This document shows positions 3,425 to 6,961 of a stretch of 40,606 nucleotides of DNA, one piece after another. Below the pieces are notes generated by a model. That model did no database searches. It saw only the letters and a list, made by a program, of their open reading frames with translations, and was not told where the DNA came from. Numbering within the stretch: the stretch's first letter is position 1; each line of letters starts with the position of its first letter. Position numbers and translations under genes: made by a program. Origin of the DNA: Hyphomonadaceae bacterium (GTDB lineage Bacteria > Pseudomonadota > Alphaproteobacteria > Caulobacterales > Aquidulcibacteraceae); assembly GCA_022843225.1 (NCBI GenBank), contig JALHOC010000015.1:4454-45059 (forward strand). Reading direction: 5' to 3'.

Positions 3425-3503
3425 GGTGGGCAAATGCAAACGATTGCGAAATTCAATTGTCGCACCTCTGGAAACCTCGCAGCGCGCACCCATCTCTTGT
3501 GAA

Positions 3504-3549
3504 CCAGGCCGGGCCCCTCTGACGGTACCCAACCGTGATGTCGGACTGG
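3504..3549 (+). ncRNA. Candidate structured cis-regulatory RNA, copy 1 (upstream of terC)
   Basis: A 46-nt motif closed by P1 (CCAGGCC 3504-3510 with GGACTGG 3543-3549, one mismatch). It contains conserved GGGCCCCUCUG (3511-3521), hairpin P2 (ACGGU 3522-3526 with ACCGU 3532-3536) and conserved GAUGUCGG (3537-3544). A second copy at 4865-4907 keeps both single-stranded blocks while P1 and P2 change in a mostly compensating way. It lies in the 339-bp leader of terC and is followed at once by a terminator-like stem, which resembles riboswitch layout. A terC-associated RNA motif has been reported in alphaproteobacteria as far as I recall; identity with it, or with the yybP-ykoY manganese riboswitch, is not established. 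I do not see the yybP-ykoY consensus. Confidence 0.55.
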
Positions 3550-3550
3550 A

Positions 3551-3637
3551 GGATTGTGGGCCGGAGAGCTGCGCTCTCTCCCCCCTTGCCCGCCCGGCCC
3601 AGCCGGGGCCTCCGGCCCGCAATCCACCCTATTTTTG
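3551..3637 (+). terminator. Long stem with U-tract, candidate terminator or attenuator before terC
   Basis: A 16-bp stem (3551-3566 with 3610-3625, one G-U pair) encloses a C-rich loop with a 6-bp hairpin (CCCGGC 3593-3598 / GCCGGG 3602-3607). A competing hairpin GAGAGC/GCTCTC (3564-3569 / 3573-3578) would break the outer stem. A T-run (3632-3636) follows six bases after the stem. It could end lysR transcription or act as the switchable terminator of the RNA motif just upstream. The T-run also forms TTGACG (3634-3639), a possible -35, with a poor -10 downstream. Confidence 0.5.
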
Positions 3638-3763
3638 ACGCCCGACTTGGAGGCGAGACACGGGCTTCTGCCCAAATTCTCTTCTCGTCGATACAGAGCC
3701 TTTTCCAGCGCCGCAGCCACGGGCTTCGGTGCTGAAATACTTGTTTGAGAAAGCAGAGCGCCG

Positions 3764-4798
3764 ATGGATTTCTGGATGGTCGAATACGCGGGTCAGCCGG
3801 TTTGGTTGTGGGCGGCTTTCCTCAGTTTCATCGGCTTTCTGCTCTGGCTTGATCTTGGCGTGGTCAACAACAAGGACGGCGTGGTTTCGCCGAAGAAGAG
3901 CGCCTTGATGTGGGCGAGCTTCGCCTCGCTTGCGGTGTTGTTCAGCCTTTATGTTGGCTTCGTTTACGAACCAGACCCGCGCTATTATTCGAACCCGGAA
4001 AATCTCAATCAGCAGGCGGTGCTCCAGTACTTCACGGGCTATCTGCTGGAGACCGCGCTCGCATTCGACAACATCTTCGTCATTTCGATGATCTTCACGT
4101 ACTTCGCGGTGCCGCGCGAGTACCAGCATCGCGTGCTGTTTTGGGGCATCATCGGCGCTATCGTGTTCCGCGCGATCTTCATTTCGCTCGGCTCCGTGGT
4201 CGTCAATCAATGGACCTGGGTGCTTTATTTCTTCGCGGCTTTCCTGATCTTCACCGGCTGGAAAATGCTATTTGGCGGCGAGCACGAGGTGAAACTCGAG
4301 GACAATGCGGTCCTGAAATTCGTCAAGAAGCGCATGCGCGTCACGGACAAAATCGAGAACCACAATTTCTTCGTGAAGAAGCCTGACCCGCTGACGGGCA
4401 AGCTCGTTCTGTTCGCCACGCCGCTGTTCCTCGCGCTCATCATGGTCGAAGTTGTGGACATCATTTTCGCGGTCGATTCCGTGCCGGCGATCTTCGCGGT
4501 CACCCGCGATCCGTTTATCGTCTACACGTCGAACATCTTCGCCATTCTCGGCTTGCGCTCGATGTACTTCATGCTCGCCGCAGCGGTGGAGCGTTTCAAG
4601 TACCTCAAGTACGGCCTGTCGCTCGTCCTTGTTCTGATCGGCGTGAAGATCATTTGGAACTTCGGGCTGTCGAAGGCCCTAGGCTGGGCGCCTTATCTGG
4701 AGCCGCAATGGTCTCTCTTCGCCACCATCGCACTGATTGGCGGCGCCATTGGGTACTCTTGGTACAAGACCCGCGATCGAGCAGGCGGGCCGACATAG
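3764..4798 (+). CDS. TerC family integral membrane protein
   Basis: A 344-residue polytopic inner-membrane protein with seven or more hydrophobic segments. It carries the two acidic membrane motifs of the TerC/Alx family: LLETALAFDNIFVIS (about residues 95-109) and VEVVDIIFAVDSVPA (about 228-242). A basic cytoplasmic loop (VKKRMRVTDK) separates the halves. Family members such as E. coli Alx are linked to manganese export and alkaline or oxidative stress, and TerC to tellurite resistance; the substrate here is inferred to be a metal ion. The long leader with a structured RNA motif suggests riboregulation. An 11-bp hairpin ends the unit at 4818-4851. The ATG at 3764 gives a normal family N-terminus (MDFWMVEYAGQP). 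Confidence 0.93.
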   Translation: MDFWMVEYAGQPVWLWAAFLSFIGFLLWLDLGVVNNKDGVVSPKKSALMWASFASLAVLFSLYVGFVYEPDPRYYSNPENLNQQAVLQYFTGYLLETALAFDNIFVISMIFTYFAVPREYQHRVLFWGIIGAIVFRAIFISLGSVVVNQWTWVLYFFAAFLIFTGWKMLFGGEHEVKLEDNAVLKFVKKRMRVTDKIENHNFFVKKPDPLTGKLVLFATPLFLALIMVEVVDIIFAVDSVPAIFAVTRDPFIVYTSNIFAILGLRSMYFMLAAAVERFKYLKYGLSLVLVLIGVKIIWNFGLSKALGWAPYLEPQWSLFATIALIGGAIGYSWYKTRDRAGGPT

Positions 4799-4817
4799 CT
4801 GTCATGATGACAAATGA

Positions 4818-4851
4818 TGGCGCCCGCGTTGAAATCGGTGCGCGGGCGCCA
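4818..4851 (+). terminator. Hairpin downstream of terC
   Basis: An 11-bp perfect GC-rich stem (4818-4828 TGGCGCCCGCG with 4841-4851) with a 12-nt loop, 20 bp after the terC stop. It is followed by a weak T-containing tail (CACTTTGAAATTT) rather than a strong U-run, so termination may be partial and let transcription reach the second RNA motif. Confidence 0.55.
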
Positions 4852-4864
4852 CACTTTGAAATTT

Positions 4865-4907
4865 CCGGTCGGGCCCCTCTGGCGGCACATGTCGCGATGT
4901 CGGCCGG
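4865..4907 (+). ncRNA. Candidate structured cis-regulatory RNA, copy 2 (downstream of terC)
   Basis: The second copy of the motif at 3504-3549. P1 is CCGGUC (4865-4870) with GGCCGG (4902-4907); conserved GGGCCCCUCUG is at 4871-4881; P2 is GCGG (4882-4885) with UCGC (4892-4895); conserved GAUGUCGG is at 4896-4903. The helices differ in sequence from copy 1 yet still pair, while the two conserved blocks are identical, as expected of an aptamer-like RNA. It heads the leader of the small-gene operon at 4953. A hairpin and a strong Shine-Dalgarno follow, so regulation of translation is a reasonable inference. Confidence 0.55.
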
Positions 4908-4913
4908 TTTCGC

Positions 4914-4945
4914 TCAAGCGGTAAACGCTTGATCCTGAAGGAGGA
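4914..4945 (+). promoter_or_regulatory. Hairpin plus strong Shine-Dalgarno, candidate expression platform
   Basis: A 7-bp perfect hairpin (TCAAGCG 4914-4920, loop GTAAA, CGCTTGA 4926-4932) stands between RNA motif copy 2 and a strong Shine-Dalgarno AAGGAGGA (4938-4945), 7 nt before the ATG at 4953. Unusually strong ribosome binding for this window supports the 47-aa gene as real. Confidence 0.5.
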
Positions 4946-4952
4946 GCACTCG

Positions 4953-5096
4953 ATGACCCAAAAGATTGGCGCAGTCCACGCGGCCATTCGAACCGCCGCT
5001 ATGTTCTCGAAAAGCGCGAGCGCCTCGCAGCAAAAGCGCTTGGCGAATGCGGGGCAAAACCCGTCGAAGGGCGAGCGCGCGAAGGTGCGGATATGA
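4953..5096 (+). CDS. Small hypothetical protein, 47 aa, coupled to ydcH-like gene
   Basis: A short frame starting MTQKIGAVHAAIRTA and ending KGERAKVRI, basic and serine/alanine-rich, with no membrane segment or recognised domain. Its ATG follows AAGGAGGA with a 7-nt spacer, and its TGA overlaps the next ATG (ATGA at 5093-5096), the usual sign of translational coupling. It could be a genuine small basic protein or a leader peptide that delivers ribosomes to the ydcH-like gene. It is preceded by the structured RNA motif, so it is probably controlled together with terC. I do not recognise the family. Confidence 0.55.
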   Translation: MTQKIGAVHAAIRTAAMFSKSASASQQKRLANAGQNPSKGERAKVRI

Positions 5097-5266
5097 TTGA
5101 GCGCCATGTTGTCAGCCTTGAGCACAAGCACTCTGCGCTCGAAGCTCTGCTCGCGTCCGAGGCTAAGCGCCCTGCACCCGATGACGCTCTGGTGCGTGTA
5201 TTGAAGCGCCAGAAGCTGCGTCTCAAGGACGAGATCGCCGCGAAACAACGGGCGCGTTCTAGGTAA
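5093..5266 (+). CDS. YdcH-like (DUF465) small coiled-coil protein
   Basis: A 57-residue protein starting MIERHVVSLEHKHSALEALL and ending in a basic stretch (LRLKDEIAAKQRARSR). The pattern of a short N-terminal helix, a central LEHKHSALEALLASE heptad-like helix, an acidic/proline turn and a second helix LVRVLKRQKLRLKDEI matches the YdcH/DUF465 family of helical-hairpin proteins, of unknown function and common in alphaproteobacteria. It has no own Shine-Dalgarno; its ATG overlaps the stop of the 47-aa gene, so translation is probably coupled. It ends 56 bp before the zinc-ribbon gene, likely the same transcript. Confidence 0.7.
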   Translation: MIERHVVSLEHKHSALEALLASEAKRPAPDDALVRVLKRQKLRLKDEIAAKQRARSR

Positions 5267-5322: not shown

Positions 5323-5658
5323 ATGGCTCTTCTCATGTGCCCGAACTGCAATTCAAGCATGCAGGCGCTCAATCGCTCCGGCGTCGAGTTCGATATGTGC
5401 CCCTCGTGCCGGGGCGTCTGGCTCGACCGAGGCGAACTTGAAAAGATCATTGAAAACGTGCGCGCCGAGGTTTCCCCCGCCGCGCCAGTTGCAGCCCCCG
5501 CGCCGCAATTCCAGCAAGCGCCGCAACCTCAACAACACCGCCCCGCGCCCCAGCCTCAGCAATACTACGGCGAACGCGGTGAGCATGGCGAGCGCGGCGA
5601 GTATGGCTACGGCCATAAGCGTAAGAAGCGCTTCGACATGTTCGACATCTTCGACTGA
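5323..5658 (+). CDS. TFIIB-type zinc-ribbon protein with low-complexity tail
   Basis: A 111-residue protein. Residues 1-45 form a zf-TFIIB ribbon: CPNC (6-9), then MCPSCRGVWLDRGELEKII, giving four Cys ligands and the diagnostic GVWLDRGEL phrase. The rest is low complexity: an Ala/Pro/Gln-rich linker, tandem GERGE(H/Y) repeats and a basic-then-acidic end (KRKKRFDMFDIFD). The ATG at 5323 follows AAGGAAA at a proper distance and is preferred over the in-frame TTG at 5305. Ribbons of this family are small cytoplasmic proteins of uncertain function, sometimes near membrane or stress genes. It probably belongs with the terC-linked small-gene unit. Confidence 0.8.
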   Translation: MALLMCPNCNSSMQALNRSGVEFDMCPSCRGVWLDRGELEKIIENVRAEVSPAAPVAAPAPQFQQAPQPQQHRPAPQPQQYYGERGEHGERGEYGYGHKRKKRFDMFDIFD

Positions 5659-5664
5659 TCCGCG

Positions 5665-5967
5665 TCAGAAGCGTTCGGCCCGCATCACAGCGACATCGCT
5701 TACAGCGACGATGCCCGGATAGGATTTGAAGTAGTCGCTGAGCCACGCAAGCGCGGCTTCGGAGGCTTCGTCGGAGCCGATAGCGACAACCAGGTACAAG
5801 CCACGCTCATCAACCCCAGTGTGGCGCCAGGCGCCGTGCGCGCCAGCGCCTTCAGCGCCGGCCAACACGCTCCAGCCCTTGAACCCGGCTTGCGCTAGCA
5901 TTCCCTCAACTGGCGAGACCGCATGGGCTTCAACGAAGATCTCGAGCTTCTTGCGTGGAACGAGCAT
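5665..5967 (-). CDS. PII-like (SbtB-type) signalling protein
   Basis: A 100-residue protein starting MLVPRKKLEIFVEAH with a PII-like pattern: a first beta strand (KLEIFVEA), a helix (VEGMLAQAGFKGWSVL), a glycine/alanine-rich T-loop-like segment (LAGAEGAGAHGAWRH), a strand (GLYLVVAIGS), a helix (EAALAWLSDYFKSY) and a final strand (GIVAVSDVAVMRAERF). It lies 4 bp after the stop of an SbtA-like bicarbonate transporter, the place of SbtB in cyanobacterial sbtA-sbtB pairs. SbtB binds adenine nucleotides such as cAMP and gates SbtA; the same role is inferred here. No C-terminal Cys motif of cyanobacterial SbtB is present. The family call rests mainly on context plus fold pattern. Confidence 0.7.
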   Translation of the reverse strand: MLVPRKKLEIFVEAHAVSPVEGMLAQAGFKGWSVLAGAEGAGAHGAWRHTGVDERGLYLVVAIGSDEASEAALAWLSDYFKSYPGIVAVSDVAVMRAERF

Positions 5968-5971
5968 GGGA

Positions 5972-6961
5972 TCACCCTACCAGAACGCGCGCCAGCGCGT
6001 GATAGATTGGAATGCCAATAAGCAGATTGAACGGAAACGTGATCCCAAGCGCAAGCGACAGGTACACGCCCGCATCCGCCTTCGGCAACGCCACGCGCAT
6101 GGCAGCTGGCGCGGCGATGTAGGACGCCGACGCAGCGAGCACCGCCATCAACGTGGCGTCTCCTTCCGACAGACCAAGAGCCGAGGCGCCGAGCAGCGCC
6201 ACGATACCGCTCAAGAGCGGCCACCCCATCGCGAATCCGACGAGCCCTGCGCTTAAACGCGACGCTTCCGCGAGACGACGAGACGCCACCAGCCCCATGT
6301 CCAGTAAGAACAAGCACAAGGCGCCCTGAAACAAAGGTCCGACGAACACGTCGAGGCGCGCCATGCCGCGCTCGCCGGTGATGACGCCAATAACAAAACT
6401 GCCAATCAGCACGACGGCGGCGCCGTTGAGCATCACTTCGCGAAACAATTCCGGCTTGAAGCGCGTACCCGCCTCGCGCGCTCGCGCGCCTGCGATAATG
6501 AGCGCCGCCAGAATTGCAGGCGTTTCCATCATGGCCAGAACCGCAGCCATGTAACCGCCGAATTCCACGCCCATGGAGCGCAGATATTCTGAGCCGGCCG
6601 CGAACGTCACCACCGAGACGCTGCCATAATGGGCGGCCGTCGCGGCCGCCGTAAGTCGGTCGAGTTTGGACAGCGCCCTAAGCGCGGCATACGCGGCGAA
6701 CGGCGCCAGGAAACTGAGCGCAAGCCCCAACCCGCCAGCCGAAATCAGTTCCGCACTCAACCCGCTCGCGCGCGCCTCGACCCCGCCCTTGAAGCCGATG
6801 CAGAGCATGAGATAGAGCGCCAAAGTCTTGGCGACTTGATCGGGAATGTTCAGGTCGGACTTCGCCCATCCCGCAAACGCGCCCAACCCAAAGAACAGCA
6901 CGGCCGGGGCGAGCAAATTCGCCATCGCTGCGGCGCCGGCGCTCGCAAGAATCTCAGTCAT
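5972..6961 (-). CDS. SbtA-like sodium-dependent bicarbonate transporter family permease
   Basis: A 329-residue membrane protein with about ten hydrophobic segments in two similar halves. Features typical of the SbtA (DUF897) family are the opening LLAPAVLFFGLGAFAGWAKSDLNIP, KTLALYLMLCIGFKGGVE (about 45-62), AATAAHYGSVSVVTFAAG in the first half, and the second-half ASASYIAAPAAMRVALP near residue 285. Cyanobacterial SbtA imports bicarbonate with Na+; heterotrophs keep homologues whose substrate is less certain. The stop lies 4 bp before the PII-like gene, and the start overlaps the MFS stop by 4 bp (6958-6961), so three genes are probably co-translated. Bicarbonate could feed carboxylases such as acetyl-CoA carboxylase; that is inference. 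Confidence 0.85.
   Translation of the reverse strand: MTEILASAGAAAMANLLAPAVLFFGLGAFAGWAKSDLNIPDQVAKTLALYLMLCIGFKGGVEARASGLSAELISAGGLGLALSFLAPFAAYAALRALSKLDRLTAAATAAHYGSVSVVTFAAGSEYLRSMGVEFGGYMAAVLAMMETPAILAALIIAGARAREAGTRFKPELFREVMLNGAAVVLIGSFVIGVITGERGMARLDVFVGPLFQGALCLFLLDMGLVASRRLAEASRLSAGLVGFAMGWPLLSGIVALLGASALGLSEGDATLMAVLAASASYIAAPAAMRVALPKADAGVYLSLALGITFPFNLLIGIPIYHALARVLVG

Follow-up and report, generated by a model that had tools for sequence, protein, structure and literature searches.

Why should one structured RNA stand both in front of terC and in front of the small-gene unit that follows it? The question is raised by a 40,606-nucleotide (nt) stretch of a Hyphomonadaceae bacterium genome (assembly GCA_022843225.1, contig JALHOC010000015.1, positions 4,454 to 45,059 of the forward strand), hereafter the window, in which an earlier reading made from the sequence alone had noticed two copies of one motif around terC. 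We identified both copies as terC RNAs (Rfam family RF03067) and compared them with several hundred relatives. These RNAs tend to follow a promoter of the type read by the heat-shock sigma factor RpoH, with the predicted transcription start at or near the outer helix of the RNA, in about half of the copies. The reading that we prefer, although we are evenly divided over it, is that 5'-terminal terC RNAs head two neighbouring mRNAs, for which a stress promoter is the first key and the RNA a second, probably translational one.

Both elements are terC RNAs and lead adjacent transcription units

An Rfam search over the window returned only two matches at the gathering score, both to RF03067 (gathering score 39.9) and both on the + strand: copy 1 at 3501–3553 (52.4 bits, E 2.1e-6) and copy 2 at 4861–4912 (44.0 bits, E 1.8e-4). 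In copy 1, the outer helix P1 (3504–3512 with 3541–3549) and the inner hairpin P2 (3522–3536) are joined by two conserved blocks (3511–3521 and 3537–3544); the corresponding blocks of copy 2 lie at 4871–4881 and 4896–4903. The sequence-only reading had described identical blocks framed by helices that differ but still pair, and direct reading and folding agree with it: GGGCCCCTCTG (the first block) and GATGTCGG (the second) are the same in both copies, while P1 and P2 are unlike in their letters and nevertheless form in both.

To place these copies among their relatives, we collected loci by Rfam searches, which gave matches in 52 of 385 genomes of the class, 73 of 200 of the order and 64 of 398 of the phylum (overlapping sets), and by an exact pattern search over named genomes, which contributed at least 119 stretches. 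The gene and promoter analyses covered 318 of these loci and the window, with later loci from the phylum search left out. Fuzzy matching yielded 372 distinct copies. We kept 339 of them, whose conserved blocks carry no more than 2 substitutions, and set aside the other 33, with 3 substitutions, as mostly chance matches, although a few (for example L217, L240 and L263) may be real.

Covariation was measured on 110 copies picked for diversity. Across P1 and P2, 83.1% of the pairs were standard, compared with 67.7% in shuffled alignments and 32.7–38.0% when the strands were slid out of register. Changes on both sides of a pair occurred in 340 cells versus 122 in shuffles, 13 of the 16 pairs showed compensatory change, and none of 500 shuffles reached the observed covariation score. 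This is strong evidence for RNA-level selection on P1 and P2 and bears out the earlier proposal of a functional structured RNA. Together with the RF03067 scores above the cut-off, it identifies both elements as terC RNAs, that is, new members of a known orphan class of cis-regulatory RNAs. They share its sequence blocks and P1/P2 architecture, and copy 1 also its place before terC, whereas copy 2 differs in leading a unit without terC.

The case for an RNA rests on conservation and covariation, because fold energy alone is not unusual: the thermodynamic folds of the two window pieces are ordinary (z 0.76 and −0.34), and RNAalifold alone failed to recover P1, the structure then being tested as named. 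P1 has one tolerated mismatch (alignment column 9 with 63, unpaired in 62 of 107 cells), and the two columns of its outermost pair, 4 and 68, do not pair in most cells (77 of 106). The two conserved strands oppose each other in an asymmetric internal loop, and the length of P2 varies. A subclass carrying GCATC after P1 has an additional local hairpin, P3, with 89.7% of its positions paired versus 28.4–38.2% in slid registers (54 sequences, selected for GCATC, so that the invariant 5' letters stem partly from the selection). P3, a GCATCG-R-loop-Y-CGATGC hairpin directly 3' of P1 and overlapping its end, occurs by contig titles in Paracoccus, Sphingobium and Caulobacter among others; GGGTCC often stands 3' of it and may offer the 3' strand of P1 an alternative partner.

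Copy 1 is the leader of terC (3764–4798, + strand; 344 amino acids (aa); PF03741, E 8e-55). Copy 2 is the leader of a unit, likewise on the + strand, of a small open reading frame (ORF; 4953–5096, 47 aa, MTQKIGAVHAAIRT..., without a match in a Pfam search), a DUF465 protein (5093–5266, 57 aa; PF04325, E 1e-11) and a Zn_ribbon_TFIIB protein (5323–5658, 111 aa; PF13453, E 3.4e-20). The gene positions thus agree with the two leaders that the sequence-only reading had assigned. Its picture of a terC gene flanked by the motif holds, with the addition that the flanking amounts to two neighbouring transcription units that have a leader apiece and belong to a clustered set in this genus. Because both units carry the same leader, the shared control that it had suggested for terC and the small genes is plausible. 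A third copy in the same genome, outside the window on contig C44, scores 38.4 bits, just below the cut-off, and its GATGTCGG block lies 25 nt 5' of the start of a second TerC gene. Weaker RF03067 matches elsewhere in this genome (L004–L007, 15.7–17 bits) contain no motif at up to 2 substitutions and were discarded as further copies.

terC RNAs tend to follow an RpoH-type promoter

In a listing of the upstream regions, many copies were preceded by CTTGA with CCNATNT about 17 nt further downstream. Among 282 nonredundant upstream regions (from 307 usable ones, at most 1 substitution), CTTG fell in the 14-nt bin from −52 to −39 in 150 and in only 10–17 in each of the other four bins. It lay within −50 to −39 in 178 regions, and in 150 of these the −10 block, found by a search seeded with CCTATATT, starts 21–22 nt later. 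A strict two-box pattern, CTTG-N17/18-CC[CT]ANNT, with its spacing set from the CTTG-anchored result, was present in 146 of the 282 regions. It was far rarer in dinucleotide shuffles (2–5 of 282) and in segments taken from upstream of other genes at the same loci (17 of 1550). When all 307 regions were sorted by the first gene, a slightly looser threshold, a score of at least 9.5, was reached for TerC in 78/135, Zn_ribbon_TFIIB in 24/30, DUF465 in 23/37, DUF4112 in 8/10, kinase-like genes in 5/6, Bax1-I in 5/11 and TerB in 5/14.

These boxes match the promoters given for Sinorhizobium meliloti in PMC4843759 (CTTGAA-N15-16-CCTATAT for RpoH1 and CTTGCC-N15-16-CCTATCT for RpoH2) in the CTTG box, the −10 box and the 21–22 nt from start to start. 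The latter are a promoter class and not an RNA, and the terC RNA can mark only part of the RpoH regulon because there are just 1–8 copies per matching genome (order search; 8 in G438, of the window's genus, and in G566, of the same order). For RpoH promoters of Rhodobacter sphaeroides, PMC3441632 stresses TTG in the −35 box and C-14, T-13 and T-9 in the −10 box. With an offset inferred from these positions, we placed +1 at 15 nt after the start of the −10 block; the predicted start then falls 5–7 nt before CGGG in 89 of the 146 copies, which puts it at the outer end of P1 or close by.

In the window, copy 1 is preceded by a promoter-like box at 3468–3495 (+ strand), with CTGG (three of the four letters of CTTG) and, 21 nt later, a perfect −10 box, CCCATCT; its score of 9.5 is reached at this position by 0.6% of 1334 control segments, and the predicted +1, at 3504, is the first base of P1. 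The box before copy 2 (4828–4856, + strand; GTTG, then CCACACT 22 nt later) scores 8.5 and is weak on its own, since 3.8% of the same 1334 controls reach that score; here, too, the predicted +1 (4865) is the first base of P1. For the third copy, the boxes read CTTGAAGG...CCATAT (score 10). As a promoter control, clpB of the same genome, a classic heat-shock gene, is preceded by the same box at score 11, and the genome contains one rpoH (361 bits). A search for Cpn10/GroES in this genome, given as 99.5% complete, returned no candidates, reflecting either an assembly gap or a real absence.

Other boxes were seen at some loci. Four Pseudomonas loci (L069, L112, L123 and L167) have CTAGCCTTA or CTAGGCTCA upstream in place of the RpoH-type −10 box. 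These resemble RpoS-type −10 boxes, and at these loci the RNA may therefore have come under the control of a different stress sigma factor. At L097, L124 and L143 (Erythrobacter/Altererythrobacter), GGAACC is followed by GTTA or GTAA-like letters, resembling EcfG general-stress promoters.

The conserved loop may pair with the downstream ribosome-binding site

The loop strand GGGCCCCUCUG contains CCUCU, similar to the anti-Shine-Dalgarno sequence of 16S rRNA. Duplex energies were calculated between the loop and the last 25 nt ahead of the start codon in 263 nonredundant motif-led genes and in 1773 control genes from the same loci, and the contributions of the duplex energy to the 16S tail, the GC content and the G count were removed by regression. 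Motif-led sites bound the loop better by 1.18 kcal/mol (residual −1.18, p 3e-9), with residuals of −0.41 to +0.40 for 12 permuted loops, and the effect was carried by TerC (−1.57), DUF465 (−2.21), TerB (−3.38, n=7) and Zn_ribbon_TFIIB (−0.94). In the window, the loop–site duplexes reach −10.8 kcal/mol for TerC and −10.3 kcal/mol for the small ORF, whose ribosome-binding site GGAGGAG (4940–4946, + strand) is partially complementary to the conserved loop; the control mean is −9.0. Partition-function folding of whole leaders gave a loop–site pairing of 0.252 versus 0.161 with swapped matched sites (n=201, p 0.035), and a ribosome-binding-site accessibility of 0.329 versus 0.392 in the swapped controls. 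Taken together, these values are suggestive of pairing between the loop and the downstream ribosome-binding site.

On the reading that we prefer, the two elements would form the extreme 5' ends of the terC mRNA and of the small ORF–DUF465–Zn_ribbon_TFIIB mRNA. For roughly half of the family, if not more, the message would be transcribed from an RpoH-type (heat-shock or stress) promoter whose +1 lies at P1 or close to it. Transcription would act as the first key and the RNA as the second. The ribosome-binding site would be free as long as the internal loop (GCCCCUCUG facing GAUG) keeps its folded form, presumably with a signal bound; otherwise the CCCCUCUG strand, or long hairpins competing with P1, would occlude it. 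The use of RpoH in vivo, the start site, the direction of the switch and its translational level are what we infer from these patterns, and the genes led make an ion, pH or a protein the likeliest signal.

Several observations weigh against this reading. The strict promoter box is missing in 136 of the 282 copies, some of which have other boxes or none that we recognised, and the −35 boxes of both window copies are imperfect. The predicted +1 and the end of P1 are uncorrelated (−0.09), lying within 2 nt of each other in 47% of copies versus 51% under random pairing. We therefore regard a blunt 5' end exactly at P1 as unsupported as a precise constraint, since random pairing fits as well. On the side of translation, the loop effect was absent for Bax1-I (+0.69, n=11), kinase-like genes (+0.44, n=7) and the mixed remainder (−0.06, n=49), and for DUF4112 it fell short of significance (−0.42, n=8). 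The partition-function test reached a p of only 0.035, with no effect for DUF465 and the reverse for DUF4112, and the combination of a near-invariant loop with variable ribosome-binding sites puts this pairing beyond the reach of covariation.

The genes led by terC RNAs extend beyond terC

First genes were called with a simple purpose-made gene caller and grouped by similarity cluster, in a sample that is not random, clusters having been fetched on purpose and close relatives included. A same-strand gene lies within 600 nt of 319 of the 339 copies, some of the other 20 lying at contig ends. The first gene belongs to the TerC cluster in 145 cases, with a further 5 TerC-like fragments, and otherwise to DUF465 (38), Zn_ribbon_TFIIB (32), TerB (17), Bax1-I (11), DUF4112 (10), a diacylglycerol-kinase-like cluster (8), MINAIG-type small ORFs (7) and many small groups or singletons. 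A location upstream of terC, which is that of copy 1 and the third copy but not of copy 2, is thus common without being universal. Pfam searches with 30 representatives, 9 of them without a match, added single or few cases of M48/HtpX (mostly after the first gene), Na_Ca_ex, NhaA, VIT1, carbonic anhydrase, alternative oxidase, Ca-type P-ATPase, CitMHS, DUF475, DUF533 and Tim44. By cluster, HtpX-like M48 genes stand 3' of the first gene in 12 units (Pfam checked on one); HtpX is RpoH1-dependent in S. meliloti, according to PMC2976971. This census suggests that the name of the terC RNA is too narrow for the range of stress and ion-transport genes that it serves.

In the genus of the window, the units lie close together: motif–Bax1-I–TerC, motif–small ORF–DUF465–Zn ribbon, motif–'Usp-like'–TerB ('Usp-like' being our own label, without a Pfam match) and motif–NhaA–Na_Ca_ex–LysR; a genome of the same family (G467) has motif–Zn ribbon–NhaA–Na_Ca_ex–LysR. 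We considered whether a Bax1-I gene had been lost between copy 1 and terC: relatives have motif–Bax1-I–TerC, direct motif–TerC units exist too, and the one Bax1-I gene found in the window's genome sits on a different contig. The place of the window's small ORF is usually held in relatives by MINAIG-type small ORFs. ORFs of about 50–60 aa (MINAIGAMHAALRAKK...) usually come first in the DUF465–Zn ribbon units of the genus and family (L187, L188, L199 and L202), and one of them, searched against Pfam, had no match. Further along the window, on the − strand (5668–6961), a P-II-like protein (PF00543) adjoins an Sbt_1 Na+-dependent bicarbonate transporter (PF05982), a pair reminiscent of cyanobacterial SbtA/SbtB, here in a genome that stands near alphaproteobacterial metagenome-assembled genomes.

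Such a gene set bears directly on the idea of an ion or pH riboswitch, in which the internal loop would sense Mn2+ or pH and the RpoH-type promoters would be incidental. Both the yybP-ykoY riboswitch, which responds to Mn2+, and the Escherichia coli alx leader are 5' leaders of TerC-family genes, as is copy 1. Ion transporters are indeed led by the terC RNA, chiefly TerC and, in single or few cases, DUF475, NhaA, Na_Ca_ex, VIT1 (later in its unit), Ca-type P-ATPase and CitMHS, and TerC proteins of Bacillus subtilis are tied to manganese in PMC12096827. However, yybP-ykoY has a different conserved sequence and no Rfam match in the window, most leaders without terC serve DUF465, Zn_ribbon_TFIIB, TerB, DUF4112 and Bax1-I genes, which are not obvious ion exporters, and the promoter link is too strong to be incidental. 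We consider such a riboswitch unlikely, if still a serious contender.

The many small unknown proteins among the genes led would instead fit a leader that binds a protein, perhaps the Zn-ribbon protein of the set itself, or a 5'-end stabiliser whose P1 shields the message from 5'-dependent decay. In its favour are the location near the predicted mRNA start and the asymmetric loop, in which two conserved strands stand opposite one another. It would, however, leave the excess complementarity of the loop to ribosome-binding sites unexplained, and the predicted unpaired 5' bases range from none to several. This explanation, too, is tenable but improbable in our estimate.

Downstream hairpins and the level of control

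In copy 1, a long hairpin (3548–3628, + strand) begins at the 3' strand of P1, its 5' strand GGATTGTGGGCCGGAG pairing with CTCCGGCCCGCAATCC; the region 3545–3640 folds at −49.2 kcal/mol (z −4.08), and none of 200 shuffles was equally stable. Leaders with 60–170 nt behind the motif often hold a long hairpin of this kind, very stable and G+C-rich, with mean z values against mononucleotide shuffles of −4.0 for Bax1-I (n=10), −3.3 for Zn_ribbon_TFIIB (n=24), −2.9 for DUF465 (n=35) and −1.1 for TerC. These hairpins, some of which end in T-runs, raise the prospect of transcription attenuation, with a terminator behind P1 that P1 governs. Against this, no terminator-like site was found on the + strand at the hairpin of the window, the motif and the start codon of TerC leaders are often close together (median 55 nt), and terminator-like sites occur in only 35 of 269 leaders versus 17 of 269 shuffled ones. 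We accordingly rejected intrinsic termination as a general mechanism and judge attenuation quite unlikely; because intrinsic terminators are not general, translational control is the better guess.

RpoH-type promoters and ribosome-binding sites less accessible than in swapped controls would also suit an RNA thermometer, in which helices hiding the ribosome-binding site melt on heat, in step with RpoH transcription. The ROSE elements of alphaproteobacteria work in this way on the ribosome-binding site, from the leaders of genes that RpoH transcribes. The window, however, has no ROSE-type Rfam match at the gathering score; thermometers do not need the near-invariant asymmetric internal loop that is seen here instead, and the very stable G+C-rich hairpins argue against melting, which makes a thermometer very unlikely. 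An operator in the DNA just downstream of the promoter, to which the narrow range of promoter spacing might point, is scarcely credible given the compensatory changes in both helices and the variable length of P2.

Distribution and a link to one TerC subfamily

The motif persists in close relatives: 13 of the 16 other genomes of the window's genus have a match, one of them below the cut-off. Outside the class of the window, the phylum search found matches in one family only (f195; 9 genomes, one below the cut-off), and the set of named genomes includes Pseudomonas and a metagenome-assembled genome of Arenimonas. Contig titles call for some caution: L141, on a 1.1-Mb contig titled Bacillus subtilis, has the exact motif with a TerC-cluster gene, and the label is probably wrong because its 8-kb locus has 52.5% GC.

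The TerC domains listed for the 200 genomes of the order were sorted according to the profile position at which they end. Among the 81 listed domains that end at 176, a copy lies less than 700 nt upstream for 53 and 700–2500 nt upstream for 17 (several of these being Bax1-I–TerC units), and the other 11 lack one, whereas a copy accompanies 0 of the 69 listed domains ending at 177. The terC RNA thus appears to mark one TerC subfamily and not terC in general, insofar as the domain end, a rough proxy and not a tree, separates subfamilies. In three genomes, divergent terC RNAs lie about 97–133 nt apart (G039:C2:1489503/1489661, G127:C157:2785/2971 and G128:C9:125403/125560), and one intergenic space therefore holds two leaders and their promoters.

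What the terC RNA may contribute to the stress response

The structure of this RNA is known, and its surroundings say more than its name does; the most useful new facts are its link to RpoH-type promoters, its predicted location at the start of the message and the genes that it leads. In the open literature searched, which did not cover the original description of the terC RNA, no paper contained 'RF03067' or 'terC motif'. Broader searches returned nothing on the terC RNA among the top matches listed, many of the matches to terC concerning telomerase RNA. As far as these searches reach, the promoter link and the wider gene set have no published description, and the terC RNA is an unexplained RNA class. 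The Caulobacter vibrioides genome contains a copy above the cut-off, which opens the way to direct tests in that organism.

A broader proposal, which we advance only tentatively and think somewhat improbable as it stands, is that the terC RNA is not a terC riboswitch but a shared, 5'-terminal second key of a stress-sigma regulon. This regulon would take in envelope and ion proteins together with the small Zn-ribbon/DUF465 proteins, in Alphaproteobacteria and also, behind another promoter box, in Pseudomonas; the conserved loop of the RNA would be a built-in anti-Shine-Dalgarno strand that one common signal frees or captures. The question then shifts from the ligand of a terC riboswitch to the second signal that may gate part of the alphaproteobacterial heat-shock response.

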